Assembly (NCBI GenBank): GCA_030386875.1
Contig: CM059575.1
Location: 16,144,293-16,208,292, forward strand
DNA: 64,000 nt
From: Morinoia aosen
Taxonomy: Eukaryota > Arthropoda > Malacostraca > Amphipoda > Talitridae
Direction of reading: 5' to 3'
Below, piece after piece: positions 16,827 through 56,069 of the stretch; the stretch's first letter is position 1, and each line of letters begins with the position of its first letter. A model generated the notes under the pieces. It did no database searches, was not told the DNA's origin, and saw only the letters and a list, made by a program, of their open reading frames with translations. The translations under genes were made by a program, and so were the position numbers.

Positions 16827-16832
16827 TCACAA
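16822..16832 (-). promoter_or_regulatory. In-frame UGA CUA stop between OTU and endonuclease, possible read-through site
   Basis: Read on the minus strand the codons are TTG TGA CTA AAT. The OTU frame and the endonuclease frame are the same frame, separated only by this one stop. UGA followed by CUA is the best-known leaky stop context in metazoan and alphavirus genes. Alternatively this is a plain nonsense mutation, or an ORF1 stop with reinitiation. Confidence 0.5.
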
Positions 16833-18032: not shown

Positions 18033-19219
18033 GCATTGGCGATATAAATAGTAGAAAGTGCGTACTTCCTTACAATTTGTTGTTTGATTCGAGCAAGGTC
18101 TGAGGGAGAGTAGCAGAGACCATCAAAACTTAGTATATAATTTTTAAATCTAGGCATGCAATTTATAGCATGGAGAAGGTCGTCGAAGCGCCCAGATGGA
18201 ACAGTTTTGATCCAGCAAGAGCGATCGATGTCCTTCCTTCTGATCGTGCTTAGGATATTGTCACCTAGCAGCAGAGTATCGTAAGGTTCTCGACAATTGG
18301 AGTCGACTTCACAAGAGATACTAGCAGGTACCGCAGTTGCAAGGTCATGAGAACTTATATGTGAATTTAAAGCAAAAAGTTGCTCGGTTAAGTTCTGAAT
18401 GTTTGATACTGTAGAGAAAATCGACGACGGGCTAGGAGGCTCACGTTGTCTTAGGGATATATTGAAAAACGCTGCTGTTAGAGACAAATTGTGAATAATT
18501 TCATGAATTTTTTGAGAGCTTGTGATTTGAAGCGGGTGCAAGTAGCCATTTAAAGAAGTAACAGTGTTTTTTCTATTGCTCTGTACTGGAAATTTCATTT
18601 TGTTCTCACAGCTTGCGCTCTGGGGTAATTTACTGCCAGTATCGGTTTGTGCGCGAATATTATCGAACATATAATCTGGAGAATGAGGAGAGTCTACCAC
18701 GCTTGAAATGTCCTTATTAATAACAACTATTCTGTCTTGTACCACTGATGAGGATGGCGTTTGTGTCCCCGTCGCTGGCGGACAGTTTGGAGCGTTGTTG
18801 TTGACGCAGAGCTGGGGAGCTGGCACGCTGTTATGCTTGTTCAGATGAGGAGCAGCAGTTGGTTGTGGTGCTGCGGCTGAGACTTCACTGCTTCGAACCT
18901 TCAAATGATTACTGGAGGTTTGGCAGATATGTTTTCCCTCGTCCTGCGATATTGGTTGCATAGTCTTCACTGACGTTGCTTCGGAAGGTGACACACATTC
19001 TCTGACGGAGTTACTGGCAGCGGTTAGCAAGTCTCCTGCGTTTTGAGCATTAGAATCTTGTGAGTGAGAGGATGTAGGTTTCCTACTTGCAGGCACTTTG
19101 CTTGGTAAGGTCGTATTTTTGCCCCTGAAAGAACCATTTTTCCGGGATGTTGTGTAGGGCAACATCTGTGCAGAGAACGGCACTTTCCAGCCTGCGTAGC
19201 GAGTCTCGTAGTGATGCAT
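17993..19219 (-). CDS. LINE A ORF1 N-terminal part, esterase-like region
   Basis: The frame is 408 codons, starting at MHHYETRYAGWK. The first 300 residues are low-complexity and rich in Ser, Thr, Pro and Asn. From about residue 310 the pattern YDTLLLGDNILSTI ... WIKTVPSGRFDDLLHAI ... NYILSFDG resembles the SGNH/GDSL esterase domain found in ORF1 of CR1 and related LINEs. The usual GDS serine is Asn here (GDN), and the GxND block reads SFDG, so catalysis is doubtful. The frame stops just after ACSAKEFNKAINF, where the next frame picks up with FLKNLGLNL. That implies either a frameshift mutation or a programmed shift in the overlap 17993-18032. Confidence 0.65.
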   Translation of the reverse strand: MHHYETRYAGWKVPFSAQMLPYTTSRKNGSFRGKNTTLPSKVPASRKPTSSHSQDSNAQNAGDLLTAASNSVRECVSPSEATSVKTMQPISQDEGKHICQTSSNHLKVRSSEVSAAAPQPTAAPHLNKHNSVPAPQLCVNNNAPNCPPATGTQTPSSSVVQDRIVVINKDISSVVDSPHSPDYMFDNIRAQTDTGSKLPQSASCENKMKFPVQSNRKNTVTSLNGYLHPLQITSSQKIHEIIHNLSLTAAFFNISLRQREPPSPSSIFSTVSNIQNLTEQLFALNSHISSHDLATAVPASISCEVDSNCREPYDTLLLGDNILSTIRRKDIDRSCWIKTVPSGRFDDLLHAINCMPRFKNYILSFDGLCYSPSDLARIKQQIVRKYALSTIYIANACSAKEFNKAINF

Positions 19220-20512
19220 TGTGCGTTATATTTGCATAGCTATGACTGAATTATGAGAACGATGTAGTTTTTGTATATGTATCGCTGATACTGATTTGCT
19301 AAATTTTACCTCGCTCAGCAAGTATTTTATGAAAAGTGAGGTAAATCCAAGCCGTTCATCGAGGTATTGAAGCTCACAGCTGAGAGAAGAGGGGTTGCCC
19401 TTTAATGCTGGAGGACAGAGGCGAGGAACTGGGAGGCTTGGGGTTGGCCGCAAACAATGACATGCAATTTTGCATTTTGCATTTTGTACGACTAGGTCAC
19501 AGTCTCTGACACGAGTCGGGATTTTTTTTTTCTTTTTTTGGCCGAGAGTTTCTTCCTATTTGAGGGACGTTTTAATTATTCAACAGAATGAGATCTGGTA
19601 CAAAATGTGATATGATGATATTGAGGGACAGCACAATTTTTAAATTTTAGTTTCATTGATTATAAAGAAAGCGTATCTTAGTATTCAGCCTCATCTTCAG
19701 TCTTTTCCTTCGTTCGGATGGGCTTCCTTTCGCTGCGGTAATTTTGCAGGAAATTTTGCAGGATCAAGAAACACATCGTCAGTAGGATGACTAACGCTTT
19801 TAGTGAGAACATATTTGAATTACAAATTCAAGGTTAGGTGCACTTTTTATAGTATTTTCCCTGGTGATTGTAAATGTTTTTCAACTTCTCGTTCACCCGT
19901 TGTTCTTACTGGTAGCTCACTTCAAACTTTCTGTGTATTCAAACTATTCGGTGTCAGTAGTGAAACGGAGGTACGAAACACAATAATTCTTTCGTGCACA
20001 TTTGCCGTCTCGGCCACGTAGGAAGTGAACAAAAACTTAACTGAGAGGTTTGACATTACCAAAAATTGATCAAAAACAAACGTAATTTCTTTGGTTGCTT
20101 GAAGCGGAAAAGTCCAGGTTTTACTATGCTCTGAACGGTCAGAGGACGCGAGGCAGGTGTACGGGAAAGGGGGGGGGGAGGGTGCGGGCGCGGTGAGGGG
20201 AGACTGAGGGAACAAGGATACTTCACACTTCACTCAGGCCTATCGTTCGAGACCAAGCTGAGCACACCATTTCACACCCCTTGCCAGCACTGCTTCGTTG
20301 GCTTTTCATTTAAAGTGCACTGATCTAAGCAGAAATAAGACAAAAGTTATTTTTTCCTTTTCGTTGTTCCACAGGTAGCAAACACATTCACTGATAGTAT
20401 AATTTTTATGCATGGCTAGGTTATTTCCCCCTTGCAATTTCAACAATTACCGCACCATTTCCCCGCACGTCCGACCGCGACCGAGTCCGACGAAAGATTC
20501 CAAGATCAAGAC
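19220..20512 (-). other. LINE A 5' UTR
   Basis: These are about 1.3 kb between the ORF1 start and the 5' end of LINE A at the LTR junction. The 75-codon minus frame at 19226-19453 ends seven bases before the ORF1 start and shows no domain; it may be an upstream ORF or chance. A G-rich tract lies at about 20165-20200 (plus strand). The presence of this UTR is why I call LINE A near full length. Confidence 0.55.
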
Positions 20513-27650: not shown

Positions 27651-28938
27651 TAATCCTTAATTACAGAACATACTGAATGAGTACTGACGAATCTCATTTA
27701 CCTGGTATCTCCATTGCTGAACAATCTCCCTCGCTCATTGTTTTATAATTCAAGACATCACACAACAGTTTTGAAGTATGCGTAGGTATTATGATTTGAC
27801 CGCCTATACGTTGTCATTTGCAAACATGCTTACTTGTATATGTGTGTACGTATATAGGTGTACGTGCGCATATGGGTGTGTATATGTGCACGTACAACTG
27901 TGTGCACTAGAGTAGATCAACCAGTCGAAGGTGCATTTTATGTCATTCCTCTCCGTTTCTGTGCAAGCATCAAACTAGACCGACATGGTACCTATGTGTG
28001 TGTGTGTTGATCAATTGCAGACATTCTGCACCATATTAAAAAAAATCATGTTTTTTTTCTAATATGAAATTGTAAAGCATCCATGTAAAAAAATAAATTC
28101 GTTGTGTGATCATCCATTTATACTGCAGTAATATACTTATTCGGCTTATAGTTATATGCTTATAATAATGTGATACCTATGTTTGTTTATCAACTGCCGA
28201 CAATTTGCGCCATATTTCAAAGATAATGTGATTTTTTTTCTAATATGAAACCTTTATAGGACATTAATGTTTTCTTTCTTATTCACGTCCCACAATCGTT
28301 TTCATGTTTCCGACTTAAGTGGACTGTTTTGTGCCACTATTTTTAGTACGAAATTTTATAAAATTCATGCTATAATAAAAGATATTTTCTCCGTTTCCGT
28401 CGATTGGAATTCTGCTTTATACGAACTAGTTTACGCTGATATTTGCGCACATGCTTACTTGTGTATATGTGTACGTGTCCACGCTATGCGTATGACACTC
28501 TGTAGAATGCGTATGTATTGCCTCGATGCATAGAAATGGGTATATGTGTGCATGTGTATGTGTATATATTTACATGTATACGTGCACATATGTGCATACT
28601 AGACTGACAACTAGCATTTTACCAGAGATAATGGTCTTTTTTCTGTGCACTCTCAACTTGTAACATTTCCTAACTGGTCATCTCTTTAGTATTGTGAAGC
28701 ATTCATGTAAAAACTATACTTTTGTTGTGCGATCATCCATTTATATTTAAATAAAATGCTTGTTAACTAATGACCGTTATGTTAAAATTGTTGAATCAGT
28801 AATACAAAACTTGTAATCTTCTTGGTCCTCATGCTTATATGTATATATGTATTTGTGTGTGTGTGTATGTGTGTGTGTGTGAGTGTGTGTATGGATATGC
28901 ACACACATGCATACGTATATGTACATATGTGTGCATAT
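27651..28938 (+). other. LINE B 3' UTR, first part, with diverged tandem units
   Basis: This AT-rich, non-coding stretch has several loosely repeated blocks. ATCATCCATTTATA recurs near 28107 and 28732, a run of T with CTAATATGAAA recurs near 28055 and 28240, and GCATNCATGTAAAAA recurs near 28078 and 28697. TG/CA-rich microsatellite stretches lie at 27830-27900, 28450-28600 and 28840-28935. The 88-codon frame at 28267-28533 is not supported as a gene. Confidence 0.6.
28925..28938 (+). repeat. 14-bp direct repeat at left edge of array
   Basis: ATATGTGTGCATAT here is repeated exactly at 39082-39095, directly outside the right edge of the array. It could be a target-site duplication for the whole array, but the surroundings are TG/CA microsatellite, so chance or microhomology is possible. 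Confidence 0.5.
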
Positions 28939-31900
28939 TTTTTACTCCCTATTTTTTATCGAGAGTTCACAGTCTAGTAAACTCCCAGAAACAGATAATG
29001 ATTCTGGTACGAGAAGCTGCTGCTTCCACAAGTTGAAACGAAATAAATGTACACAAGGAGTTCCGAGACTCGAACTCAGGACTTAGAAATTACCGCGCCG
29101 GCACGCTACCAACTGAGCTATCGATCACCCTAAAAAGGTGACCGAAACCCAACGATAGCAATGCTTGGCCCAGTGCAGGTACGTGCTGTCCCGACATATA
29201 TTTTACTCCCTATTTTTTATCGAGAGTTCACAGTCTAGTAAACTCCCAGAAACAGATAATGATTCTGGTACGAGAAGCTGCTGCTTCCACAAGTTGAAAC
29301 GAAATAAATGTACACAAGGAGTTCCGAGACTCGAACTCAGGACTTAGAAATTACCGCGCCGGCACGCTACCAACTGAGCTATCGATCACCCTAAAAAGGT
29401 GACCGAAACCCAACGATAGCAATGCTTGGCCCAGTGCAGGTACGTGCTGTCCCGACATATATTTTACTCCCTATTTTTTATCGAGAGTTCACAGTCTAGT
29501 AAACTCCCAGAAACAGATAATGATTCTGGTACGAGAAGCTGCTGCTTCCACAAGTTGAAACGAAATAAATGTACACAAGGAGTTCCGAGACTCGAACTCA
29601 GGACTTAGAAATTACCGCGCCGGCACGCTACCAACTGAGCTATCGATCACCCTGAAAAGGTGACCGAAACCCAACGATAGCAATGCTTGGCCCAGTGCAG
29701 GTACGTGCTGTCCCGACATATATTTTACTCCCTATTTTTTATCGAGAGTTCACAGTCTAGTAAACTCCCAGAAACAGATAATGATTCTGGTACGAGAAGC
29801 TGCTGCTTCCACAAGTTGAAACGAAATAAATGTACACAAGGAGTTCCGAGACTCGAACTCAGGACTTAGAAATTACCGCGCCGGCACGCTACCAACTGAG
29901 CTATCGATCACCCTAAAAAGGTGACCGAAACCCAACGATAGCAATGCTTGGCCCAGTGCAGGTACGTGCTGTCCCGACATATATTTTACTCCCTATTTTT
30001 TATCGAGAGTTCACAGTCTAGTAAACTCCCAGAAACAGATAATGATTCTGGTACGAGAAGCTGCTGCTTCCACAAGTTGAAACGAAATAAATGTACACAA
30101 GGAGTTCCGAGACTCGAACTCAGGACTTAGAAATTACCGCGCCGGCACGCTACCAACTGAGCTATCGATCACCCTAAAAAGGTGACCGAAACCCAACGAT
30201 AGCAATGCTTGGCCCAGTGCAGGTACGTGCTGTCCCGACATATATTTTACTCCCTATTTTTTATCGAGAGTTCACAGTCTAGTAAACTCCCAGAAACAGA
30301 TGATGATTCTGGTACGAGAAGCTGCTGCTTCCACAAGTTGAAACGAAATAAATGTACACAAGGAGTTCCGAGACTCGAACTCAGGACTTAGAAATTACCG
30401 CGCCGGCACGCTACCAACTGAGCTATCGATCACCCTAAAAAGGTGACCGAAACCCAACGATAGCAATGCTTGGCCCAGTGCAGGTACGTGCTGTCCCGAC
30501 GTATATTTTACTCCCTATTTTTTATCGAGAGTTCACAGTCTAGTAAACTCCCAGAAACAGATAATGATTCTGGTACGAGAAGCTGCTGCTTCCACAAGTT
30601 GAAACGAAATAAATGTACACAAGGAGTTCCGAGACTCGAACTCAGGACTTAGAAATTACCGCGCCGGCACGCTACCAACTGAGCTATCGATCACCCTAAA
30701 AAGGTGACCGAAACCCAACGATAGCAATGCTTGGCCCAGTGCAGGTACGTGCTGTCCCGACATATATTTTACTCCCTATTTTTTATCGAGAGTTCACAGT
30801 CTAGTAAACTCCCAGAAACAGATAATGATTCTGGTACGAGAAGCTGCTGCTTCCACAAGTTGAAACGAAATAAATGTACACAAGGAGTTCCGAGACTCGA
30901 ACTCAGGACTTAGAAATTACCGCGCCGGCACGCTACCAACTGAGCTATCGATCACCCTAAAAAGGTGACCGAAACCCAACGATAGCAATGCTTGGCCCAG
31001 TGCAGGTACGTGCTGTCCCGACATATATTTTACTCCCTATTTTTTTTTATCGAGAGTTCACAGTCTAGTAAACTCCCAGAAACAGATAATGATTCTGGTA
31101 CGAGAAGCTGCTGCTTCCACAAGTTGAAACGAAATAAATGTACACAAGGAGTTCCGAGACTCGAACTCAGGACTTAGAAATTACCGCGCCGGCACGCTAC
31201 CAACTGAGCTATCGATCACCCTAAAAAGGTGACCGAAACCCAACGATAGCAATGCTTGGCCCAGTGCAGGTACGTGCTGTCCCGACATATATTTTACTCC
31301 CTATTTTTTATCGAGAGTTCACAGTCTAGTAAACTCCCAGAAACAGATAATGATTCTGGTACGAGAAGCTGCTGCTTCCACAAGTTGAAACGAAATAAAT
31401 GTACACAAGGAGTTCCGAGACTCGAACTCAGGACTTAGAAATTACCGCGCCGGCACGCTACCAACTGAGCTATCGATCACCCTAAAAAGGTGACCGAAAC
31501 CCAACGATAGCAATGCTTGGCCCAGTGCAGGTACGTGCTGTCCCGACATATATTTTACTCCCTATTTTTATCGAGAGTTCACAGTCTAGTAAACTCCCAG
31601 AAACAGATAATGATTCTGGTACGAGAAGCTGCTGCTTCCACAAGTTGAAACGAAATAAATGTACACAAGGAGTTCCGAGACTCGAACTCAGGACTTAGAA
31701 ATTACCGCGCCGGCACGCTACCAACTGAGCTATCGATCACCCTAAAAAGGTGACCGAAACCCAACGATAGCAATGCTTGGCCCAGTGCAGGTACGTGCTG
31801 TCCCGACATATATTTTACTCCCTATTTTTTATCGAGAGTTCACAGTCTAGTAAACTCCCAGAAACAGATAATGATTCTGGTACGAGAAGCTGCTGCTTCC

Positions 31901-34317
31901 ACAAGTTGAAACGAAATAAATGTACACAAGGAGTTCCGAGACTCGAACTCAGGACTTAGAAATTACCGCGCCGGCACGCTACCAACTGAGCTATCGATCA
32001 CCCTAAAAAGGTGACCGAAACCCAACGATAGCAATGCTTGGCCCAGTGCAGGTACGTGCTGTCCCGACATATATTTTACTCCCTATTTTTTATCGAGAGT
32101 TCACAGTCTAGTAAACTCCCAGAAACAGATAATGATTCTGGTACGAGAAGCTGCTGCTTCCACAAGTTGAAACGAAATAAATGTACACAAGGAGTTCCGA
32201 GACTCGAACTCAGGACTTAGAAATTACCGCGCCGGCACGCTACCAACTGAGCTATCGATCACCCTAAAAAGGTGACCGAAACCCAACGATAGCAATGCTT
32301 GGCCCAGTCCAGGTACGTGCTGTCCCGACATATATTTTACTCCCTATTTTTTTTTATCGAGAGTTCACAGTCTAGTAAACTCCCAGAAACAGATAATGAT
32401 TCTGGTACGAGAAGCTGCTGCTTCCACAAGTTGAAACGAAATAAATGTACACAAGGAGTTCCGAGACTCGAACTCAGGACTTAGAAATTACCGCGCCGGC
32501 ACGCTACCAACTGAGCTATCGATCACCCTAAAAAGGTGACCGAAACCCAACGATAGCAATGCTTGGCCCAGTGCAGGTACGTGCTGTCCCGACATATATT
32601 TTACTCCCTATTTTTTATCGAGAGTTCACAGTCTAGTAAACTCCCAGAAACAGATAATGATTCTGGTACGAGAAGCTGCTGCTTCCACAAGTTGAAACGA
32701 AATAAATGTACACAAGGAGTTCCGAGACTCGAACTCAGGACTTAGAAATTACCGCGCCGGCACGCTACCAACTGAGCTATCGATCACCCTAAAAAGGTGA
32801 CCGAAACCCAACGATAGCAATGCTTGGCCCAGTGCAGGTACGTGCTGTCCCGACATATATTTTACTCCCTATTTTTTATCGAGAGTTCACAGTCTAGTAA
32901 ACTCCCAGAAACAGATAATGATTCTGGTACGAGAAGCTGCTGCTTCCACAAGTTGAAACGAAATAAATGTACACAAGGAGTTCCGAGACTCGAACTCAGG
33001 ACTTAGAAATTACCGCGCCGGCACGCTACCAACTGAGCTATCGATCACCCTAAAAAGGTGACCGAAACCCAACGATAGCAATGCTTGGCCCAGTGCAGGT
33101 ACGTGCTGTCCCGACATATATTTTACTCCCTATTTTTTATCGAGAGTTCACAGTCTAGTAAACTCCCAGAAACAGATAATGATTCTGGTACGAGAAGCTG
33201 CTGCTTCCACAAGTTGAAACGAAATAAATGTACACAAGGAGTTCCGAGACTCGAACTCAGGACTTAGAAATTACCGCGCCGGCACGCTACCAACTGAGCT
33301 ATCGATCACCCTAAAAAGGTGACCGAAACCCAACGATAGCAATGCTTGGCCCAGTGCAGGTACGTGCTGTCCCGACATATATTTTACTCCCTATTTTTTA
33401 TCGAGAGTTCACAGTCTAGTAAACTCCCAGAAACAGATAATGATTCTGGTACGAGAAGCTGCTGCTTCCACAAGTTGAAACGAAATAAATGTACACAAGG
33501 AGTTCCGAGACTCGAACTCAGGACTTAGAAATTACCGCGCCGGCACGCTACCAACTGAGCTATCGATCACCCTAAAAAGGTGACCGAAACCCAACGATAG
33601 CAATGCTTGGCCCAGTGCAGGTACGTGCTGTCCCGACATATATTTTACTCCCTATTTTTATCGAGAGTTCACAGTCTAGTAAACTCCCAGAAACAGAAAA
33701 TGATTCTGGTACGAGAAGCTGCTGCTTCCACAAGTTGAAACGAAATAAATGTACACAAGGAGTTCCGAGACTCGAACTCAGGACTTAGAAATTACCGCGC
33801 CGGCACGCTACCAACTGAGCTATCGATCACCCTAAAAAGGTGACCGAAACCCAACGATAGCAATGCTTGGCCCAGTGCAGGTACGTGCTGTCCCGACATA
33901 TATTTTACTCCCTATTTTTTATCGAGAGTTCACAGTCTAGTAAACTCCCAGAAACAGATAATGATTCTGGTACGAGAAGCTGCTGCTTCCACAAGTTGAA
34001 ACGAAATAAATGTACACAAGGAGTTCCGAGACTCGAACTCAGGACTTAGAAATTACCGCGCCGGCACGCTACCAACTGAGCTATCGATCACCCTAAAAAG
34101 GTGACCGAAACCCAACGATAGCAATGCTTGGCCCAGTGCAGGTACGTGCTGTCCCGACATATATTTTACTCCCTATTTTTTATCGAGAGTTCACAGTCTA
34201 GTAAACTCCCAGAAACAGATAATGATTCTGGTACGAGAAGCTGCTGCTTCCACAAGTTGAAACGAAATAAATGTACACAAGGAGTTCCGAGACTCGAACT
34301 CAGGACTTAGAAATTAC
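28939..34317 (-). repeat. tRNA-like tandem array, left arm (units read on minus strand)
   Basis: There are twenty-one head-to-tail units of 261 bp, the outermost cut at its left edge and the innermost cut at the junction. The tRNA-like part of each unit is on the minus strand, first at 29057-29130 and then every 261 bp (for example 29318, 29579, ... 34020), with a partial copy at 34281-34341. Units are nearly identical: only scattered single changes and length variants of one T-run (T6 normal, T9 near 31042 and 32347, T5 near 31566 and 33656). The recurring 60-codon frames are repeat sequence read from TTG, not genes. Confidence 0.93.
29057..29130 (-). ncRNA. tRNA-like Pol III unit head (representative, left arm)
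   Basis: On the minus strand the sequence has an A box TAGCTCAGTTGG and a B box GAGTTCGAGTC, about 31 nt apart. A T-arm can be drawn (CTGAG, loop, CTCGG), but the D-arm and anticodon arm are poor and the acceptor ends do not pair well, so it is not a working tRNA. The 5' half (CGATAGCTCAGTTGGTAG) is closest by memory to tRNA-Tyr, and the source is inferred from that. Twenty full copies lie in the left arm and eighteen in the right. Confidence 0.75.
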
Positions 34318-34349
34318 CGCGCCGGCACGCTACCAACTGAGGTAATTTC
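34310..34349. repeat. Turn-round junction of the array
   Basis: GAAATTAC (34310-34317) and GTAATTTC (34342-34349) are the innermost arm bases; the spacer 34318-34341 is 24 bp. The spacer is the middle of a minus-strand tRNA-like copy whose 5' end is missing. The right arm begins within the 3' half of another copy. So the inversion broke within the tRNA-like part. Confidence 0.9.
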
Positions 34350-34552
34350 TAAGTCCTGAGTTCGAGTCTCGGAACTCCTTGTGTACATTTATTTCGTTTC
34401 AACTTGTGGAAGCAGCAGCTTCTCGTACCAGAATCATTATCTGTTTCTGGGAGTTTACTAGACTGTGAACTCTCGATAAAAAATAGGGAGTAAAATATAT
34501 GTCGGGACAGCACGTACCTGCACTGGGCCAAGCATTGCTATCGTTGGGTTTC

Positions 34553-34573
34553 GGTCACCTTTTTAGGGTGATC
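34553..34573 (+). terminator. T5 Pol III terminator within a unit-boundary hairpin (representative)
   Basis: GGTCACC, then TTTTTA, then GGGTGATC can fold into a seven-pair stem with one G-T pair. T5 is a sufficient Pol III stop, and it lies directly before the next tRNA-like head. The same arrangement occurs at every unit boundary in both arms. Confidence 0.7.
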
Positions 34574-34639
34574 GATAGCTCAGTTGGTAGCGTGCCGGCG
34601 CGGTAATTTCTAAGTCCTGAGTTCGAGTCTCGGAACTCC
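34566..34639 (+). ncRNA. tRNA-like Pol III unit head (representative, right arm)
   Basis: The A box is TAGCTCAGTTGG at 34576-34587 and the B box GAGTTCGAGTCTC at 34619-34631. A Pol III transcript starting here would run through the unit body and stop at the next T5, giving an RNA of about 255 nt. No such transcript is shown by the sequence; it is predicted from the boxes. Confidence 0.75.
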
Positions 34640-37600
34640 TTGTGTACATTTATTTCGTTTCAACTTGTGGAAGCAGCAGCTTCTCGTACCAGAATCATTA
34701 TCTGTTTCTGGGAGTTTACTAGACTGTGAACTCTCGATAAAAAATAGGGAGTAAAATATATGTCGGGACAGCACGTACCTGCACTGGGCCAAGCATTGCT
34801 ATCGTTGGGTTTCGGTCACCTTTTTAGGGTGATCGATAGCTCAGTTGGTAGCGTGCCGGCGCGGTAATTTCTAAGTCCTGAGTTCGAGTCTCGGAACTCC
34901 TTGTGTACATTTATTTCGTTTCAACTTGTGGAAGCAGCAGCTTCTCGTACCAGAATCATTATCTGTTTCTGGGAGTTTACTAGACTGTGAACTCTCGATA
35001 AAAAATAGGGAGTAAAATATATGTCGGGACAGCACGTACCTGCACTGGGCCAAGCATTGCTATCGTTGGGTTTCGGTCACCTTTTTAGGGTGATCGATAG
35101 CTCAGTTGGTAGCGTGCCGGCGCGGTAATTTCTAAGTCCTGAGTTCGAGTCTCGGAACTCCTTGTGTACATTTATTTCGTTTCAACTTGTGGAAGCAGCA
35201 GCTTCTCGTACCAGAATCATTATCTGTTTCTGGGAGTTTACTAGACTGTGAACTCTCGATAAAAAATAGGGAGTAAAATATATGTCGGGACAGCACGTAC
35301 CTGCACTGGGCCAAGCATTGCTATCGTTGGGTTTCGGTCACCTTTTTAGGGTGATCGATAGCTCAGTTGGTAGCGTGCCGGCGCGGTAATTTCTAAGTCC
35401 TGAGTTCGAGTCTCGGAACTCCTTGTGTACATTTATTTCGTTTCAACTTGTGGAAGCAGCAGCTTCTCGTACCAGAATCATTATCTGTTTCTGGGAGTTT
35501 ACTAGACTGTGAACTCTCGATAAAAAATAGGGAGTAAAATATATGTCGGGACAGCACGTACCTGCACTGGGCCAAGCATTGCTATCGTTGGGTTTCGGTC
35601 ACCTTTTTAGGGTGATCGATAGCTCAGTTGGTAGCGTGCCGGCGCGGTAATTTCTAAGTCCTGAGTTCGAGTCTCGGAACTCCTTGTGTACATTTATTTC
35701 GTTTCAACTTGTGGAAGCAGCAGCTTCTCGTACCAGAATCATTATCTGTTTCTGGGAGTTTACTAGACTGTGAACTCTCGATAAAAAATAGGGAGTAAAA
35801 TATATGTCGGGACAGCACGTACCTGCACTGGGCCAAGCATTGCTATCGTTGGGTTTCGGTCACCTTTTTAGGGTGATCGATAGCTCAGTTGGTAGCGTGC
35901 CGGCGCGGTAATTTCTAAGTCCTGAGTTCGAGTCTCGGAACTCCTTGTGTACATTTATTTCGTTTCAACTTGTGGAAGCAGCAGCTTCTCGTACCAGAAT
36001 CATTATCTGTTTCTGGGAGTTTACTAGACTGTGAACTCTCGATAAAAAATAGGGAGTAAAATATATGTCGGGACAGCACGTACCTGCACTGGGCCAAGCA
36101 TTGCTATCGTTGGGTTTCGGTCACCTTTTTAGGGTGATCGATAGCTCAGTTGGTAGCGTGCCGGCGCGGTAATTTCTAAGTCCTGAGTTCGAGTCTCGGA
36201 ACTCCTTGTGTACATTTATTTCGTTTCAACTTGTGGAAGCAGCAGCTTCTCGTACCAGAATCATTATCTGTTTCTGGGAGTTTACTAGACTGTGAACTCT
36301 CGATAAAAAATAGGGAGTAAAATATATGTCGGGACAGCACGTACCTGCACTGGGCCAAGCATTGCTATCGTTGGGTTTCGGTCACCTTTTTAGGGTGATC
36401 GATAGCTCAGTTGGTAGCGTGCCGGCGCGGTAATTTCTAAGTCCTGAGTTCGAGTCTCGGAACTCCTTGTGTACATTTATTTCGTTTCAACTTGTGGAAG
36501 CAGCAGCTTCTCGTACCAGAATCATTATCTGTTTCTGGGAGTTTACTAGACTGTGAACTCTCGATAAAAAATAGGGAGTAAAATATATGTCGGGACAGCA
36601 CGTACCTGCACTGGGCCAAGCATTGCTATCGTTGGGTTTCGGTCACCTTTTTAGGGTGATCGATAGCTCAGTTGGTAGCGTGCCGGCGCGGTTATTTCTA
36701 AGTCCTGAGTTCGAGTCTCGGAACTCCTTGTGTACATTTATTTCGTTTCAACTTGTGGAAGCAGCAGCTTCTCGTACCAGAATCATTATCTGTTTCTGGG
36801 AGTTTACTAGACTGTGAACTCTCGATAAAAAATAGGGAGTAAAATATATGTCGGGACAGCACGTACCTGCACTGGGCCAAGCATTGCTATCGTTGGGTTT
36901 CGGTCACCTTTTTAGGGTGATCGATAGCTCAGTTGGTAGCGTGCCGGCGCGGTAATTTCTAAGTCCTGAGTTCGAGTCTCGGAACTCCTTGTGTACATTT
37001 ATTTCGTTTCAACTTGTGGAAGCAGCAGCTTCTCGTACCAGAATCATTATCTGTTTCTGGGAGTTTACTAGACTGTGAACTCTCGATAAAAAATAGGGAG
37101 TAAAATATATGTCGGGACAGCACGTACCTGCACTGGGCCAAGCATTGCTATCGTTGGGTTTCGGTCACCTTTTTAGGGTGATCGATAGCTCAGTTGGTAG
37201 CGTGCCGGCGCGGTAATTTCTAAGTCCTGAGTTCGAGTCTCGGAACTCCTTGTGTACATTTATTTCGTTTCAACTTGTGGAAGCAGCAGCTTCTCGTACC
37301 AGAATCATTATCTGTTTCTGGGAGTTTACTAGACTGTGAACTCTCGATAAAAAATAGGGAGTAAAATATATGTCGGGACAGCACGTACCTGCACTGGGCC
37401 AAGCATTGCTATCGTTGGGTTTCGGTCACCTTTTTAGGGTGATCGATAGCTCAGTTGGTAGCGTGCCGGCGCGGTAATTTCTAAGTCCTGAGTTCGAGTC
37501 TCGGAACTCCTTGTGTACATTTATTTCGTTTCAACTTGTGGAAGCAGCAGCTTCTCGTACCAGAATCATTATCTGTTTCTGGGAGTTTACTAGACTGTGA

Positions 37601-39081
37601 ACTCTCGATAAAAAATAGGGAGTAAAATATATGTCGGGACAGCACGTACCTGCACTGGGCCAAGCATTGCTATCGTTGGGTTTCGGTCACCTTTTTAGGG
37701 TGATCGATAGCTCAGTTGGTAGCGTGCCGGCGCGGTAATTTCTACGTCCTGAGTTCGAGTCTCGGAACTCCTTGTGTACATTTATTTCGTTTCAACTTGT
37801 GGAAGCAGCAGCTTCTCGTACCAGAATCATTATCTGTTTCTGGGAGTTTACTAGACTGTGAACTCTCGATAAAAAATAGGGAGTAAAATATATGTCGGGA
37901 CAGCACGTACCTGCACTGGGCCAAGCATTGCTATCGTTGGGTTTCGGTCACCTTTTTAGGGTGATCGATAGCTCAGTTGGTAGCGTGCCGGCGCGGTAAT
38001 TTCTAAGTCCTGAGTTCGAGTCTCGGAACTCCTTGTGTACATTTATTTCGTTTCAACTTGTGGAAGCAGCAGCTTCTCGTACCAGAATCATTATCTGTTT
38101 CTGGGAGTTTACTAGACTGTGAACTCTCGATAAAAAATAGGGAGTAAAATATATGTCGGGACAGCACGTACCTGCACTGGGCCAAGCATTGCTATCGTTG
38201 GGTTTCGGTCACCTTTTTAGGGTGATCGATAGCTCAGTTGGTAGCGTGCCGGCGCGGTAATTTCTAAGTCCTGAGTTCGAGTCTCGGAACTCCTTGTGTA
38301 CATTTATTTCGTTTCAACTTGTGGAAGCAGCAGCTTCTCGTACCAGAATCATTATCTGTTTCTGGGAGTTTACTAGACTGTGAACTCTCGATAAAAAATA
38401 GGGAGTAAAATATATGTCGGGACAGCACGTACCTGCACTGGGCCAAGCATTGCTATCGTTGGGTTTCGGTCACCTTTTTAGGGTGATCGATAGCTCAGTT
38501 GGTAGCGTGCCGGCGCGGTAATTTCTAAGTCCTGAGTTCGAGTCTCGGAACTCCTTGTGTACATTTATTTCGTTTCAACTTGTGGAAGCAGCAGCTTCTC
38601 GTACCAGAATCATTATCTGTTTCTGGGAGTTTACTAGACTGTGAACTCTCGATAAAAAATAGGGAGTAAAATATATGTAGGGACAGCACGTACCTGCACT
38701 GGGCCAAGCATTGCTATCGTTGGGTTTCGGTCACCTTTTTAGGGTGATCGATAGCTCAGTTGGTAGCGTGCCGGCGCGGTAATTTCTAAGTCCTGAGTTC
38801 GAGTCTCGGAACTCCTTGTGTAAATTATTTCGTTTCAACTTGTGGAAGCAGCAGCTTCTCGTACCAGAATCATTATCTGTTTCTGGGAGTTTACTAGACT
38901 GTGAACTCTCGATAAAAAATAGGGAGTAAAATATATGTCGGGACAGCACGTACCTGCACTGGGCCAAGCATTGCTATCGTTGGGTTTCGGTCACCTTTTT
39001 AGGGTGATCGATAGCTCAGTTGGTAGCGTGCCGGCGCGGTAATTTCTAAGTCCTGAGTTCGAGTCTCGGAACTCCTTGTGT

Positions 39082-39095
39082 ATATGTGTGCATAT
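39082..39095 (+). repeat. 14-bp direct repeat at right edge of array
   Basis: This is an exact copy of 28925-28938 (ATATGTGTGCATAT). See that entry for the two readings. Confidence 0.5.
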
Positions 39096-39493: not shown

Positions 39494-39498
39494 TCTTA

Positions 39499-39806
39499 GA
39501 GTCCTAATTCTCTGGCTTGTTAAATTGCCCGCAATCTGAAAGTAACCTCCACAAAGAAAACACTCACTTACACCTGGCCAACGTCCTCGCTCACCGGACC
39601 TCGCCTGCACGGAGGTTCCCATCTATGAGAAGATCGTCCGAAATCAAGCACGCCATCGGTCATCACGGCTTCCTTCAATAAACAAGATACAGCTGAGTTA
39701 TCCCATGACTTGTCTTATTATCCCTCTCTTACGATTTCGAAAAACACTGCTTGAGAAAAACGTTTAAGATTGGAAGTTAATAGCAACCATATCCCCAACC
39801 TTAACA
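39499..39806 (+). repeat. Element 1, 5' LTR piece 4 of 4
   Basis: AGTCCTAATTCTCTGG to CCTTAACA matches 57294-57601 almost base for base. CA at 39805-39806 is the LTR end. AATAAA at 39678-39683 could be the LTR poly(A) signal. Confidence 0.93.
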
Positions 39807-39866
39807 CTGGTGACCCCAGAGTGACCAGTGTTAAGGTTGGGGATATGGTTGCTATTAACTTCCAAT
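39769..39866. repeat. Perfect hairpin at the 5' LTR / primer-binding site junction of element 1
   Basis: The arms 39769-39811 and 39824-39866 are perfect inverted copies of 43 bp with a 12-bp spacer. The left arm is the last 38 bp of the LTR plus five bases. After the right arm, TAACACTGGTGAC appears again (39867 onward), leading into the sequence read as the primer-binding site (CTGGTGACAACCCAGAG). Confidence 0.9.
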
Positions 39867-40339
39867 TAACACTGGTGACAACCCAGAGTGACCCAATTTT
39901 CAAGCTTAAAACAAAACTATTCAACTCGATAAGTGTTTGAGAAAAACGTGAGAGGATAATGTTGGCATCTAATTGTAATGATAAGTTTCCCATTCGTAGT
40001 ATTCCTTGAGAATTTTCCATGGATGTACTGTGCTAACGTTCTCTGAGCAGCTCTAAAAATTTTTTTTCTTTCATGCTGTTTCCTGTCTTTTGTTTCATGT
40101 GCCACAGTAGGTAGGAAAATTTTTTTCCCCTTATTTCCGTGCTTTACGCTTATTTCTGACTACCGTAAAAATTTTCGTTTCAATTTTTTCTTTCTTTCCG
40201 TTTCAATTTGTTTGAATGATTGAATAGGTAATTAGAATCGCAAACCTTTGACACTTTAATACCAAAGTTATTAGGCGTTGATTACGTAAATTCCGTGCCG
40301 TTATAGCTTAATTTTGCATTCAAAAGAAAAATCGCCAGT

Positions 40340-41299
40340 ATGTCCGACACAGAGAATGGTCCAGAGCCAGCGCGCAATAAGCCTATAACTCTTCCTCCTT
40401 TCATACCAGCAGAAAGCCAAACTTGGTTCAACCAAGTGGAGGCCATATTCCGATATAATAAAATCACGAACTCATCAGACATGTTCCATGCATTAATAGC
40501 TGCTGTGCCCACGCAAATGCTAAGTGATTCAAATGAATTAATTGTGAATCCGCCAGCTATAAACCCTTACGGGATCTTAAGAAGTAAAATCCTCGAAAAA
40601 TTGCAGTTGTCCGACGCGGACAAGTTTAGGTCTCTTGTGGATGCCTCGGCAATTCCACCTGTCTCTGTCATTTTCTCTCCTACTTCGTTAGTTAAGGAAC
40701 TTAGAAAACTAGCAGCCGGTGTTGGCGTAGCTGAGGGATTTCTCAGAGAAGTGTACCTGAGCAAAGTACCACCTAATGTGAGACCTTTCTTATCAATGAT
40801 AGGTCCGAACGAAAGTCTAGAGACCTTAGCCCAGGCCACGGAGACAGTGATGCGCAATTTAAACATGTCAGAAGCACTGCAGGTAGCTTCCTTGAACGCA
40901 TCAGCAGCGAATTTTAGCCCGTCAAATACTGCTAATAATCAATCCTCAGCGGCAATGGATACAATGCAACGAGAAATCGCCGAACTTAAACAAGCTGTCC
41001 AGAATTGCCAGTTAGGTCAGAGTGTAGCTCATATCCAGCCAGGCCCAAGGAATGTCTTACGTTACCATGCCTACGACTATCCCTATGACTATTCTCCTCC
41101 TCCTCCTCAACGTTTCGATAGAGGTAAATCTCATGATAGGTCAAATCAAAACCGCCACTCTAGATCGCGCTCTCGCGATGCTAATAGTAATTTATGTTGG
41201 TACCATCACAAGTTTGGTGACCAAGCACGAAAGTGCGGGTCCCGATTCTGTCCTCGCTATACCGAAATGACTTCGGGAAACGCCAACAGCGACGCATAG
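40340..41299 (+). other. Element 1 gag region
   Basis: This region encodes the capsid-type structural protein of a Ty3/Gypsy element. It spans about 319 codons from MSDTENGPEPARNKP. The middle part (FRSLVDASAIPP ... VPPNVRPFLSMIG) is typical of arthropod Gypsy gag. Near the end is the Cys-His block CWYHHKFGDQARKC. It overlaps the start of pol, which lies in the -1 frame, as many elements of this family arrange it. Confidence 0.85.
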
Positions 41300-44200
41300 T
41301 AGCGAGTACTGCGTTGCCTCATTCCCAGACTACTCGCCTCTTAACTATATTAGATCCCACTACCAAATATCGATTTTTGATCGACACAGGTTCAAGTGTG
41401 TCAGTTATCCCAGCCACGGCTAAAGATAAAAACAATAATAATTTAGTGGCGACACTACGCGCCGCAAATGGCACGCCAATAGCTTGTTATGGGGAGAGAG
41501 TACTCGAGTGCAGTCTGGGGTTAAGGCGAAACTTTATTTTCAATTTCTTAGACGCAGAAGTCCAAGAGCCCATAATTGGCGCGGATTTCTTAGCGAAGTA
41601 TGGGATCATTGTAGATGTTAAAAACTGTAGAATTAGGGACGAGGAGACGCAGATCTCAATTCCCGCTTGTGGCATAACTAGAGCTAATGTCTTGCATTCC
41701 TTCTCTATTGCTTTCAAGAAAGAGTGCATGTTCGAGCAGGTTCTCGCAGAATACCCTGCATTAACAAACTCTAACTTAGCTTCTAAAAATATGCAGACGA
41801 GCACAAAACACTTCATTGAAACAACTGGACCGCCAGTTCACTCCAGAGCTAGACGCTTACCGCCTGATCGATTGGCTTTAGCAAAGAAAGAATTTGCTAG
41901 GATGTTAGACAATGGCATCATCCGCAGTTCCAAAAGCCTTTGGGCTAGCCCTCTCTTGCTAGTACCCAAGGCTAACGGTGAATTCAGACCGTGCGGGGAT
42001 TTCCGCAGGTTGAATGCTGTTACTCTACCTGACCGCTACCCTAGCCCTTACCTACATGATTTTAGTGCAAATTTAGAGGGAGCACAAATTTTCTCATAGA
42101 TAGACCTTCAAAGCGCCTTCCATCAAATACCACTTGAGGAAAGCGCTATACCTAAGACCGCGGTAATCACCCCGTTTGGTCTCTTTGAATTCCTGAAGAT
42201 GCCTTACGGTTTAAGAAATGCTCCTCAGACATTCCAACGACACATGTCTGAAATCTTCTCGGATCTCACTTTTGCCTATGTGTATCTTGACGACATTTTG
42301 GTGGCATCCGCAACCCCGGAGCTACATAAAGACCATCTTAGGGTCGTGTTTCAAAGACTGTCCGACAACGGACTCCTGGTAAATCCTGCAAAATGTGAGC
42401 TCGGAAAGCCATCACTGATATACTTAGGTCATGAAATCTCTACCCTAGGTCTAAAACCTTTGCCTTCCAAAGTAGAAGTGATCAAAAACTTTCCTCTTCC
42501 ACAGACCCAGAAGGAACTGAGAAGGTTCCTAGGCTCTGTTAATTTCTATCATAGATTCATCAGAAATTGCGCGCAAACTTTAGCTCCCTTGTCAGATTTG
42601 CTGGAACCAAAGAGAAAAGGTAAATCTACTGAGGTAAAATGGACGAATGCAGCACGTAAAGCTTTTGATGAGATTAAGCACAAGCTAGCTACCGCGACTG
42701 AATTATGCTACCCTATTGCCAATGCTGACTTCAGTTTGGTGGTTGATGCCTCCAGTACTGCTGTAGGTGCCGTTTTGCAACAAAAAGTTGGGACTAATAT
42801 CTCTCCTCTTGCCTTCTTTTCCAAAAAGCTATCGCCCACTGAGCGTGCTTACAGCGCGTTCGGTAGGGAACTCCTTGCTAGCTATCTGTCTGTGAGACAC
42901 TTTCGCTATGCTCTAGAGGCAAGAGAGTTCGTGATCTACACAGACCACAAACCCTTGACCTCGGCGATCAAAATGCCTTCTGAGCGACACTCGCCAAGAG
43001 AAGCTCGACACCTGTCTTTCATTAGTCAGTTTACCACTGACATCCGCTTCATTAAAGGGTTGGAGAATACAGTGGCAGACTGTCTGTCAAGGATTAACTC
43101 TATCAACCCCGGTGGTGAAATCACTTTCGGTAATATTAGTAATGCTCAGAAGGAGGATCCTGAACTCCAGGATCTTCTCAAACCTTCTAACACTACTTCT
43201 TTGAAATTAACCTTGGTTGATGGCGTGTACCGTGATGCTGAGCGACCTTCTCGTTTGTATCTTCCTGAGACTCTCCGCAGAGTAGCTATTCTTCACTATC
43301 ATTCTCTTTCACATCCTGGTATTAACCGTACATTGCTTTTGATTTCCGATCGTTTCGTCTGGCCAGCGATGCGTAAGGAGGTCAAGCAAATTGTGAAAAA
43401 TTGCCTTGCATGTCAGAGTAGCAAAGTTGTGAAACATAATCGTGCAGCGCTACAGAGTTGTGCTTTTGCTGGACACAAATTCGACTCCGTACACCTAGAT
43501 TTGGTGGGTCCGTTGCCTTTGTCGCGCGGTCATTCCTATTTGTTAACCATAATTGATAGATTCTCTAGATGGGTTGAGGCCGTGTCTCTCCCTGATACCC
43601 AAACTGAGACTAGCTCGTGCTTTCATGAGTAATTGGATTTCCAGATTTGGGGTTCCCTTAAGTGTCACGCATGACCGGGGATCACAATTTACCTCCAAAT
43701 TTTGGAGTGAGCTTAGCACCGCTTTAGGGTGTGAAAACATTAACACCACCGCGTATCATCCGCAGTCGAATGAACTTATTGAGAGAGTCCACAGAGATTT
43801 AAAGAGTGCGTTGCGTTGCCTTAATTGCAGTCACGATTGGACTGACAGACTTCCAGTAGTATTATTGAGTATTAGGAATTTGCATAGGCAAGATCAGCAG
43901 TGCACAGCAGCAGAAATGTTGTATGGAAAGACGCTTCGCCTCCCTGGCGACATTTTTTATCCAAAACCTTTGCCTGAATTTTCATCTGCTGATCGTTCCG
44001 CATATGTAACCTGTCTCAAGGATTGCATGCGTCAGATCAAGTATGTAGCTCCACGAATGCCTCACTCAAAGGACAAATTAGATCCTGCATTGCAACATTG
44101 CACACATGTGTATGTTCGCATAGACGCTATAAAGCCAACCCTCTCACGTCCTTATGATGGCCCATTCAAAGTACTAAAACGGACGCCAAAGTATTTCGTC

Positions 44201-44638
44201 TTTGATAGATCTGGTTCACCCGACCCTGTGAGCATAGATCGATTAAAGGTCGCGTATACCTCCGATAATAGTGTGATTTCTAACTCTTCATTCTCTCCAC
44301 AGAACTTCCTTTCCACTGAGACTCGATCATATCGTCCACCTCAGTTTCCTCAGTTGGCTGCATTATTGCCTAGTCAACTTGAGTGTAATCCTTTCTTTGT
44401 GCCTGTACCTTCAAACCCTATCCCAAATCCTATCGTAGACTCTAATTCTAGCTCTCTTAGTGAAACAGCGACAAGTCTGGAGAGACCAGACGAGACCGCT
44501 GCAGTAACTCCTATACCAAGAACTCTTGCTGATCTAAATTTGCAGACCCGTTTGGTGAAGCTTCCACGCTCAGTAACATTTTCCGACCGCCAAACCCGGC
44601 ATGGTTGCGTAGTTGGAACTCCTTCCCGCTACAAATGA
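41233..44638 (+). pseudogene. Element 1 pol region (protease, RT, RNase H, integrase)
   Basis: Domains appear in Ty3/Gypsy order: aspartic protease (FLIDTGSSVSVIP), reverse transcriptase (YLDDILVAS), RNase H (VVDASSTAVGAVLQQ and TDHKPLTSAI), then an integrase with an HHCC-type finger and the core (HLDLVGPLPLS, HDRGSQFTSKFW, AYHPQSNELIERVHRDLK). The region is broken in about two places and is treated as a fossil. A tail rich in Ser and Pro follows the integrase. Confidence 0.88.
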
Positions 44639-44666
44639 TTGCAGCGGGTGGACCTTTCGGTCTGCG

Positions 44667-44679
44667 CCTTGGGGGGTAA
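44667..44679 (+). other. Element 1 polypurine tract
   Basis: CCTTGGGGGGTAA lies directly before the 3' LTR. It is preceded by GACCTTTCGGTCTGCGC, a small hairpin that element 3 also has in front of its own tract. Confidence 0.75.
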
Positions 44680-44974
44680 TGTAGCATTAGCTACATAGTG
44701 TAAAATTATAAAAATTCTCATTCGCACTTAAATAAAATAATTATTGACATTAAAAATCTTACTCTAAATTATTATTAATAATTTTCTACTTATAATTAGT
44801 AATCCTTGAAGTTTTTGTGTAAATTCATAACACATAAAATAACGATCGACATTTTCGAGTTTAAAGCCTCTGAAAAAGGGCAACACCGCGCGGGACGCTT
44901 GGTCTTCCGCGTCACGTTTTCGTTCGTCTTTAGCTTGTGCATACAGCGTTTTTGTAAGTGAAAGAAATTAAGTG
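44680..44974 (+). repeat. Element 1, 3' LTR piece 1 of 2
   Basis: TGTAGCATTAGC onward matches 10491-10784. It is cut by element 2, whose insertion duplicated AGTG (44971-44974 and 56066-56069). Confidence 0.93.
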
Positions 44975-46700
44975 TGTCGAGAATATGTTCAGAATGATCA
45001 AATTTTGCGAATTAAAAATGAAAATTCTTGTAATTATGTGTAATGTAACAAATTTGTGCTTACGTAAAAAGTTGTCTTGAGATGTCTCAGAAAATCCCAG
45101 CAGCCAGAGAGGTCGCTTCAACATGAATGTTTTATGTCGCTTCAACATGTATGTTTTTACGCCTGTATGTTTTCTTTCAACTCAGCAATGTTAGGAGGCT
45201 GCGATAAGGTGCGAGAGCCAAACGATGTATGTTTACAGTGTGTCTTGTTTCTGGAGGGGCCTATGTTGTGGTTATAGCAAATTTTTCATGCGAGCGAGCC
45301 TTGGGAAACTCGAGACGGTCGAAAAATGCCTACCCAAGCGCAAACAAAGTCGCCTTGTAGTCAAAGATAAATCGAGACACTCAGACCGAGAGAGTCGGCA
45401 AACCAACGGTCGGTTCGAAGGAACTGAGCGTGAGAAGAAAAATGATGCTAAGAAAGAAATAAAGGCGAGCGGCGGCACTACCAATTAGAAAAGAGGTAGG
45501 CGGGCACTCCGAGGCTCCTAAGATTCTCATAGGAGCAACCCTCGTGCACAACCCTCGAAGAAAATGCGCCAGGGCTCAAGGCGTCTGAGGAACAATGGAC
45601 AGTTCGACCGGCGAAACCGTAACGTGAGGTGCAACCAAGGAACGCGGGTGTGTTCACAATAACAAGCGTGCTTAATGCAATAATAAGAAAAGTGGCTACA
45701 TTGAAAATTATACTAAGTTTCACGCTATAATGTAATCCAGAAAGTAACACATTCTCGTTTCACTTGCAGAAAATTTACGTGTTCCCGTCACCACGTTCAC
45801 AAAGGGGAAATTTATCAAAACATAACCCACCGTGGGAGTTATTGATGGAACATGGAGATGCTGCACTAGAAGGGAGGGTAAGAGATGCATTTCTTAAAAA
45901 GAAAGAGTAAAGATATTGTTGAGATAAATATTGCGATAATTCATTGTCATTCAGTCATTGATGCGCTTAAAAAGTAACAAGTTAAATTTTTATCTTTGAC
46001 AGGCGGGACGGTTATTCAGTTATACATCTGAGGATTGATCAGCTCGAATGAAGGGAATCGACGTGTGAACATGCTGAAACGTAATGAGCAAGATGACGTC
46101 ATCACTAGACATTTTCTGAACAGTGCATAAGATAGGCCTTGAACTGAAGCGAGTTGCGGATGAATTCGGTGGTTGAAGTGACCTTCGCCTACTGGCTGTT
46201 GGGAGTACTTAGAGATTGTAGGCATTATCTGTGTTATGGTTGGATGCATAAGCAATCTGCGGTTAAAGGCTGGCCAGCCAAATTTCTGTGTAATTATGTG
46301 CAGTAGGTCATTTGACGTATGCTATTTGCTTTCATTAATAATTAGCATTGTTCCTAACACCAATCATTGTGTGTGCGCTCATTGATGTTTGTATCACGTA
46401 TAGCTGGGAATTATAAATGTTAAGCATAGTTCACCCTGTGTATCATGCCCCACAATATTAGAAGCAATCCATCGTAATGCAACGGAGGGCGCCCAGAAAA
46501 TGCGCTGCGTAAGTGGGTCAGCGATCCCCGGTGAGTACCTTTCCTTTTTTTAGTATATGTGCTGTAATTGCCGATATTTATTCATTAATTTGTGCTGCAT
46601 ATGTATACTTTGGAGGTGGGCCATTCCTCAATTCCGAGAGCCGAATCTTCCTGTTAACGAAATGTTAACAAGGAGGTGAAGGGGACCATTTCTCGTGACA
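44975..46700 (+). repeat. Element 2 5' LTR
   Basis: The LTR starts TGTCGAGAAT and ends CGTGACA. Small frames within it (for example 45225-45488) recur in the other LTR at 54591-54854 and are not separate genes. A possible primer-binding site, TGGTGAGATCAACACG, starts at about 46710. Confidence 0.93.
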
Positions 46701-47068
46701 GCCTAATTTGGTGAGATCAACACGATCGCTTTGTAATATTTTGCGAGTGTAGTATAGCAGTTGCATTGTATTTTTTTTGCGTTTGTTATTTCATGTGCAA
46801 AACGTACAGAAATTCAGTAGAGGTACATGTCTCGTAGTGATGATTTTCTGTGTTCCGGTGTGAGAAGCCAGCAAGCACACGGCCATATAGATCAAGAAAG
46901 TGAAAGTGGTTATAGAAGTGATAAGTTTGAGTGAGAAAATTCTGGTGTGTTCACTCGATTAATTTCAAAGTTTCAGTAAAAGTTTTACAGTGAGTAGGTG
47001 TGGAAAACATTTGAGTGATCGCAAATTTTTGAGTTTTTGGAGAAAGTGAATAGGAGAAGATCGACACT
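46701..47068 (+). other. Element 2 leader between LTR and gag
   Basis: This untranslated leader of about 370 bp contains the probable primer-binding site near its left end. No frame or other structure of note is visible. Confidence 0.7.
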
Positions 47069-48088
47069 ATGCCTGCCCGTGGGAGAAGGAATCACGACCG
47101 CAGAAATGCGCCAGCAACGCCACCACGACCCGAAGAGGAAGCAGTAAACATGCCCGTGGTAACGAGTTGCGTGGGGGCCATTGGTGCTAAATTCAGGAGG
47201 GGCGATAATGTGGGGGAACATATGGCGAGGTTGAAGTTTTTGACGGGTAATCTGAATAACAGTGAGCAGGTGAAAGCCTTCTTCCTTTGCCTAGGTCCAC
47301 AAGAGGCAAAGGAATGCAATCAAATAATTGATACACTAACGAACCTACGAGAAGCAGAAAACTGGCTGCGCTCTTACGCCGACCAGGTCGAACATCCAAC
47401 TCAAGCGCTGTTTGAAATAGTAACCAAGAAGCAAACAAGCCGGGAAGGAGTGTCAGAGTACCTGACGCGCCTGGAAAGGCTGTACAACGAGAATTATCTG
47501 GAACATCCGGAACGAATCCTTGTAGATTTGATGTGGCTCGGATTAAGGGAGAACATCACAAGACCATTTCGAAGTGATGCGCGACCTACGACAGTACAAG
47601 AACTGAGAGACATGGCAATCGAGGTGGAAAATCGACGGATAGTACCAATGTCAAGGGAAACGACAGAGAAGAGGGAACCGGAGAGAGAAAGAGCGCAGCG
47701 AAGCGAGAGGAGGCCACAGAATGAGACTGCACGTGTCGGCCATACGATGCGGCATTCACCACAACGGCCTAGAGGGTACCGCCATGAAGTGCCACCCTGG
47801 AGAGAAAGGAACAGACAGATACGACACTCTCCTTATCATCGAAGAGGAAATTATGAAGCACCCCAATGGAGCGAAAAGGGCAGACTTAGGAGTCAGCAGC
47901 ACCAAATATACTACGCAAGAAAGCCACAGCCGCATTCGGAAGCACCACCTGCACCTGCAGTGGACTTAGCCCAGTATAGAACAGTGCCACCGCCGTGCGT
48001 AAACTGTGGAAAATTTGGGCACCTAAGGGCTGATTGCAGGGTGCAACAGTTTGCAGGACAGCCAAAAAACGGAATAGGAGACCGTTAG
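47069..48088 (+). CDS. Element 2 gag
   Basis: This is a structural protein of 339 codons from MPARGRRNHDRR. The capsid-type middle part (VKAFFLCLGPQEAKE ... YLTRLERLYNENY) is followed by a basic stretch rich in Arg and His, and by one CCHC knuckle, CVNCGKFGHLRADC, near the C-terminus, which would bind the element's RNA. The frame overlaps pol by 55 bases, with pol in the -1 frame, as in related Ty3/Gypsy elements. Confidence 0.9.
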   Translation: MPARGRRNHDRRNAPATPPRPEEEAVNMPVVTSCVGAIGAKFRRGDNVGEHMARLKFLTGNLNNSEQVKAFFLCLGPQEAKECNQIIDTLTNLREAENWLRSYADQVEHPTQALFEIVTKKQTSREGVSEYLTRLERLYNENYLEHPERILVDLMWLGLRENITRPFRSDARPTTVQELRDMAIEVENRRIVPMSRETTEKREPERERAQRSERRPQNETARVGHTMRHSPQRPRGYRHEVPPWRERNRQIRHSPYHRRGNYEAPQWSEKGRLRSQQHQIYYARKPQPHSEAPPAPAVDLAQYRTVPPPCVNCGKFGHLRADCRVQQFAGQPKNGIGDR

Positions 48089-56065: not shown

Positions 56066-56069
56066 AGTG

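Follow-up and report, generated by a model that had tools for sequence, protein, structure and literature searches.

The stretch of Morinoia aosen DNA analysed here (64,000 nucleotides of contig CM059575.1; hereafter the window) holds two adjoining arrays of a 261-bp unit, placed by TRF at 28934-34341 (20.7 copies) and 34341-39082 (18.2 copies), with 99% matches in each. They are bracketed by two identical copies of the 14-mer ATATGTGTGCATAT in direct orientation, one at 28925-28938 and one at 39082-39095; this target-site duplication bounds the insert proper at 28939 and 39081 and so gives it a length of 10,143 bp. Its left arm (28939-34344, minus strand, 99.7% identity when aligned to the unit) is made of head-to-tail units with the tRNA sense leftward and an outer start at about unit position 197 (site B), and its right arm (34341-39081, plus strand, 99.9% identity) of units with the tRNA sense rightward and an outer start at about position 84 (site A); the arms overlap by 4 bp at their central join, at about 34341-34344. 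A representative full unit lies on the plus strand at 34566-34826 and is numbered from GGGTGATCGATAGC. It carries, on the same strand, the A-box-like motif TAGCTCAGTTGG (34576-34587, from unit position 11) and the B-box-like motif GTTCGAGTC (34621-34629, from position 56), which we take to be Pol III promoter boxes by matching to general patterns, and its only run of four or more Ts stands at the very end (34821-34825, positions 256-260), presumably as Pol III terminator and ring junction. The original prediction had seen 21 units pointing left and 18 right, in inverted arms of at least 4.7 kb between 28,939 and 39,081, and had called the unit tRNA-like and its amplification recent. Those coordinates are exact, the counts and arms agree with TRF and with the alignment to the unit, and the two motifs bear out the tRNA-like character; the single-unit substitutions in the window array (1.18 per kb) bear out a recent amplification, and so low a divergence suggests that the element family has been active recently.

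Mobile DNA of other kinds surrounds the array. Nested long direct repeats occupy 39494-57588, where the pair 39494-39793/57289-57588 (99%) encloses the pair 44972-45271/54338-54637 (99%), and frames at 42100-43629 and 48034-51759 carry Ty3-type RT, RNase H and integrase domains; this is probably one LTR retroelement within another. A LINE with RT, RNase H and endonuclease domains lies at 4679-10223, and since at least seven other copies in the genome match nearly the full query at 99-100% protein identity, it too has probably been active recently. A second LINE-like element, with a neighbouring frame that holds an OTU cysteine-protease domain, is found at 13912-19225, and AT-rich minisatellites with periods of 26 and 28 at 11098-11518 and 58962-59306.

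ARAGORN found no intact tRNA, and there is no long frame in the array, the unit encoding neither RT nor GIY-YIG endonuclease. In the fold predicted for it, positions 1-10 are base-paired to 247-256, and conservation of the rod-like fold was not significant (P = 0.16). No Rfam family was found in the window at the gathering threshold, a relaxed Rfam search with 967 bases of the array gave CRISPR-repeat matches only (E 2.3-7.2), and the hammerhead core CTGANGA..GAAA is absent from 28939-39081. Unit ends made by a ribozyme were considered and rejected, given the lack of any ribozyme in the Rfam and motif searches and the variability of the junctions between arrays. In the single, old copies used for subfamilies 2 and 3, the A-box pattern is not matched at position 11 in the former, and the latter is without a run of four Ts.

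A search of the species' own genome (1.99 Gb, 29 contigs) with the unit gave 343 matches, the best of which (about 150 of the 343) were listed and supplied 27 loci that, together with the window array, form the subfamily-1 set. At 27 of these 28 loci the array is two-armed and divergent, with the tRNA sense pointing away from the centre; the sole one-armed locus, L021 (2685-4684), has no target duplication and a junction found nowhere else in the set (TTTTTTT). Two of the arrays have an older relative next to them (about 77% and 85% identity with the unit), and among the matches listed for these relatives 18 of 38 and 30 of 38 loci, respectively, are divergent, none is convergent and the others have listed matches on one strand only (the grouping of the first leaves out 12 of its 150 listed rows, all from one locus on contig C22). 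These were the only two relatives in 184,636 bases of flanks and both are two-armed, so that dispersed monomers were not seen at any locus examined. The mirrored array is the usual insertion form of this family. The search for further copies that the original prediction proposed thus changes the reading of the window array: the family is unusual, and the array is an ordinary example of it. The recurrence, like the target duplication and the two preferred start positions, lay outside what that prediction could see. That misassembly should be the general cause is unlikely, the same two-armed form with target duplications being found in inserts of 283 to 600 bp. At one further locus (L015, 274-7388) a subfamily-1 array is flanked left and right by long frames, of which one has an endonuclease VII-like match, and the array has perhaps split a large mobile element there.

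Duplications of 12-15 bp were found at 42 of 43 elements from the three subfamilies, the exception being the one-armed L021. In the first set, where a script detected direct repeats at 32 of 33 elements, they measure 12 bp (15 elements), 13 bp (11), 14 bp (one) and 15 bp (five), and only one of 992 mismatched left/right pairs from other loci reached 12 bp, so the 14-bp repeat at the window is not due to chance. Ten further elements of the third subfamily all have duplications of 12-15 bp, with 13 bp prevailing; they were chosen because both strands were listed, and only their ends and duplications count as independent evidence. One of these ten, L042, repeats the insertion of L014 (same duplication, same flanks); L042 and L014 (6533-6835), both on contig C17, are one insertion copied later along with its surroundings. 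The excess above 12 bp roughly matches what chance would add to a constant 12-bp stagger, with excesses of 3 bp above and of 2 bp below expectation in the first set of 33. The target consensus has a weak A/T preference only. One array, L035, was excluded from the counts of duplications and ends, as its right end lies beyond the sequence analysed for that locus, and another, L022, was misplaced in the arm-side lists and mislabelled in the target profile, which affects the mean arm lengths and that profile only.

The outer ends follow a rule. In all 26 two-armed subfamily-1 arrays with both ends available, one outer end falls at unit position 83-97 (site A) and the other at 184-206 (23 arrays) or 130-139 (three arrays), which together make up site B; the site A end may be on the left or on the right. 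Site B sits elsewhere in subfamilies 2 and 3, and a pseudo-symmetric helix of the predicted fold (70-78/179-187), flanked by both start sites, was dropped as an explanation given the different place of site B in subfamily 2. At the centre, the arms meet with scattered phase differences (27 arrays; Rayleigh p = 0.35), the inner ends by themselves are somewhat clustered (p = 0.012), and the joins of 32 elements consist of overlaps of up to 4 bp or gaps of up to 62 bp. Mean arm length is 4.2 units for both arm types, and the lengths of the two arms of an element are correlated (rho 0.51, p = 0.0035, 31 elements).

What the template was can be read, to a degree, from the variants. The 28 arrays give 172 array-by-variant cases, of which 48 count as fixed (i.e., present in at least 80% of an array's units), 118 are confined to a single unit and six are intermediate. 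The fixed variants are common to both arms in 46 of the 48 cases, the other two belonging to the one-armed L021, and their types cluster where the end of one unit meets the start of the next (five of 15 types in 10 of 261 columns, p = 7e-5). The string at this junction is TTTTA in 18 arrays, TTTTTA in seven, and TTTTTAG, TTTTG and TTTTTTT in one each; it differs between arrays and keeps a constant length within each, except for one unit of L021, and junction substitutions affect three further units in the arrays tabulated. The inner A6 run is six long in all arrays but L032, and slips in single units of several. Junctions frozen in this way, together with the fixed variants, are what one would expect if transcripts with variable Pol III ends were closed into rings by ligation and then copied for several laps, and the pattern speaks against a linear RNA of several units, template jumping from one RNA to the next and a later expansion of the array. 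The arms also share one sense relative to the end from which each starts, which argues for a single-stranded template. We infer from these sequences that the template would have been a one-unit circular RNA, copied over several laps from both cut strands. The six intermediate variants are not accounted for by the ring; one of them, T78G in the left arm of L035 (2509-5868), is present in five of that arm's 14 units, which are not contiguous, and absent from the other arm (the five being out of 27 units overall), and is perhaps the result of repeated misreading of one template position.

Two-sided target-primed insertion might also have had as its template, in place of a ring, a linear RNA of several units transcribed through an older array. 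Older arrays are homogeneous and could give homogeneous copies, and a multi-copy mRNA is what PMC11167929 proposes for its Penelope-like element. Such a template, however, would need a bottleneck of one unit at every insertion to yield the fixed differences between arrays, when only six of the 172 cases are intermediate, and the T4 and T5 junctions recur on identical backgrounds, as if made anew; we consider this reading unlikely.

As to the enzyme, the trail starts with a decayed frame in the flank of one array (L012), which looked like the C-terminus of a Penelope-like element. Six relatives were found for it in the protein database, one of them (P0002) with a weak GIY-YIG match (E 0.012), and a genome search with the frame gave 150 matches of 21,703 candidates, at 66 single and 38 multi-match loci. 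The multi-match loci are divergent in 35 cases, same-strand in two and convergent in one, where the copies lie 5 kb apart. Successive copies on the same strand are spaced by 2,658-2,661 bp or double that; a 2.66-kb ring is conceivable as the Penelope-like template. Two longer frames hold an RT domain (RVT_1, E 1.4e-12 and 6e-12), one of them with a weak GIY-YIG match (E 0.13). Rfam searches of L012, L054, L058 and L062 gave matches below the gathering thresholds only, and no hammerhead was matched at E up to 1 in the last three, a search which a minimal form may escape.

Nine Penelope-like elements were taken from the divergent loci, where both strands were listed, so that here again only ends and duplications are independent evidence. 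In all nine, the ends differ in their query position, 954-961 for the one and 918-930 for the other, so that one end has the tail and one lacks it, a difference familiar from Penelope-like elements; the duplications measure 12 bp in five, 13 bp in two, 14 bp in one and 16 bp with one mismatch in one (the right end of L054 was placed by eye). The arms of one element are 97.3-100% identical; this proves nothing, since copies from different elements also reach 100% (mean 98.3%). Local alignment of the unit with the Penelope-like start region gave no significant similarity, shuffled sequences doing as well in 54 (U), 19 (U2) and 31 (U3) of 300 trials. Arm orientation, end rule and stagger are shared by the Penelope-like elements and the 261-bp family, and PMC11167929 reports a lizard Penelope-like protein that cleaves both strands, extends each of them and begins at sites within its RNA, a behaviour that fits the two-sided internal starts proposed here. 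A Penelope-type enzyme of the same genome thus probably moves the 261-bp unit.

LINE machinery could in principle have copied the ring instead. LINEs are common here, a search with the LINE at 4679-10223 of the window listing 58 matches among 38,662 candidates, and L1 is known to use twin priming. Among those matches, which represent one LINE family, no divergent pair was found, as judged by eye, and it is the Penelope-like copies that match the unit in orientation, end rule and stagger; a LINE as the helper seems to us improbable.

The remaining alternatives fare worse against the arrays themselves. Some LINE-type reverse transcriptases jump between templates, and one could imagine them passing end to end across linear one-unit RNAs, with variable or untemplated junctions expected inside each array; given junctions whose length is constant save for one unit of L021, there is little chance of this. 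Tandem arrays can also grow by unequal exchange or by a DNA rolling circle, and a few intermediate variants do exist, so that a short inserted dimer might have expanded later at the DNA level; 46 of the 48 fixed variants, however, are common to two inverted arms, the T78G units of L035 are not contiguous, 42 of 43 elements have kept their duplications intact, and arms of constant sense call for a template that was single-stranded, all of which makes such growth very improbable. Hardly credible, lastly, are the fold-back of one cDNA and the repair of a break from the sister copy, which the original prediction had offered: either yields an inverted repeat, yet no variant was found in exactly one unit of each arm, the central phase difference is scattered, and sister-copy repair would predict neither the target duplications nor the preferred outer starts. 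The rolling-circle insertion that it had coupled to the fold-back keeps its first half, in that copying of this kind is probably involved.

The reading we prefer, and hold to be likely, is that the window array is an insertion of a non-autonomous tRNA-derived retroelement through a ring RNA, copied from two sides over many laps by the enzyme of resident Penelope-like elements. The unit would act as a small Pol III gene whose one-unit transcript ends in the terminal T run. This transcript would be closed, as the frozen junctions suggest, into a ring of about 260 nt, presumably by a ligase and with slight variation in the end nucleotides retained. At the target, the anatomy of the inserts gives good support to a cut of the strands about 12 bp apart, whose ends would prime reverse transcription within the same ring, at site A (about 84) and site B (mostly about 190). 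Each cDNA would run for several laps before the two are joined midway, leaving divergent tandem arms within one target duplication. The shared insertion signature supports the supply of the enzyme by the resident Penelope-like elements.

In spite of its likeness to several known systems, the element differs from each. tRNA-derived SINEs carry tRNA-like Pol III signals, are non-autonomous and lie dispersed with target duplications, normally as single 3′-anchored copies. The 261-bp unit resembles them in its putative tRNA-like internal Pol III promoter (by motif patterns), whereas even the smallest inserts of its family have two divergent arms, with internal starts. In L1 twin priming two cDNAs are made from the two sides of one target, giving an inverted insert; it affects part of the inserts and uses a linear RNA. 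Two-sided priming and an inverted insert are found here as well, but in nearly every insert examined and with several laps.

The passages of PMC7229834 and PMC7761336 on metazoan non-LTR retrozymes describe small non-autonomous tandem repeats of about 170-400 nt, with target duplications of more than 4 bp, that are thought to move through a circular RNA copied beyond one unit. Short tandem units and target duplications are features of the 261-bp family too. The retrozymes of those passages, however, have type I hammerhead ribozymes, none of which was found in the 261-bp unit, and mirrored arms like those of the present family are not described there. As to their helper, the relevant part of PMC7761336 states that it cannot be deduced and that nothing in animal retrozymes reveals it. 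The parts of PMC11167929 and PMC3846280 that deal with Penelope-like elements report tandem and inverted copies flanked by target duplications, the cleavage and extension of both strands, starts at sites inside the RNA and an optional tail at one end, all of which recall the present arrays; the 261-nt unit differs in being tRNA-derived and in encoding no protein, and those parts propose a linear multi-copy RNA or self-priming rather than two-sided copying of a ring. The later steps of Penelope-like insertion are left for validation in PMC11167929. In its workings the 261-bp element resembles both retrozymes and SINEs, and it lacks a defining feature of each, no ribozyme being found in the one respect and no dispersed monomers among the examined loci in the other. 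Among the open-licence PMC papers listed, which leave absence unproven, no account was found of a tRNA-derived element without a ribozyme that forms mirrored arrays or is mobilised by Penelope-like elements.

In conclusion, the element is probably a ribozyme-free circular-template retroelement moved by Penelope-like machinery, and as such a variant of known retroelement types. On balance we lean, with some reserve, towards a new mode of SINE movement, in which a ribozyme-free, tRNA-derived Pol III ring is copied for many laps by a Penelope-type RT that sets out from the two cut strands whenever an insertion is made; this would also account for the tandem and inverted arrangement of the Penelope-like elements themselves. 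The event is recorded in natural insertions whose ends can be read (i.e., two starts, a tight stagger, the laps and a central join), and the junction string serves as a barcode of the template common to both arms. If our reading is true, the mirrored arrays are fossils of two-sided rolling-circle target-primed reverse transcription, a process that could then be tested with a single protein and a single RNA of 261 nt, and the family may represent a ribozyme-free route to a circular-RNA parasite.
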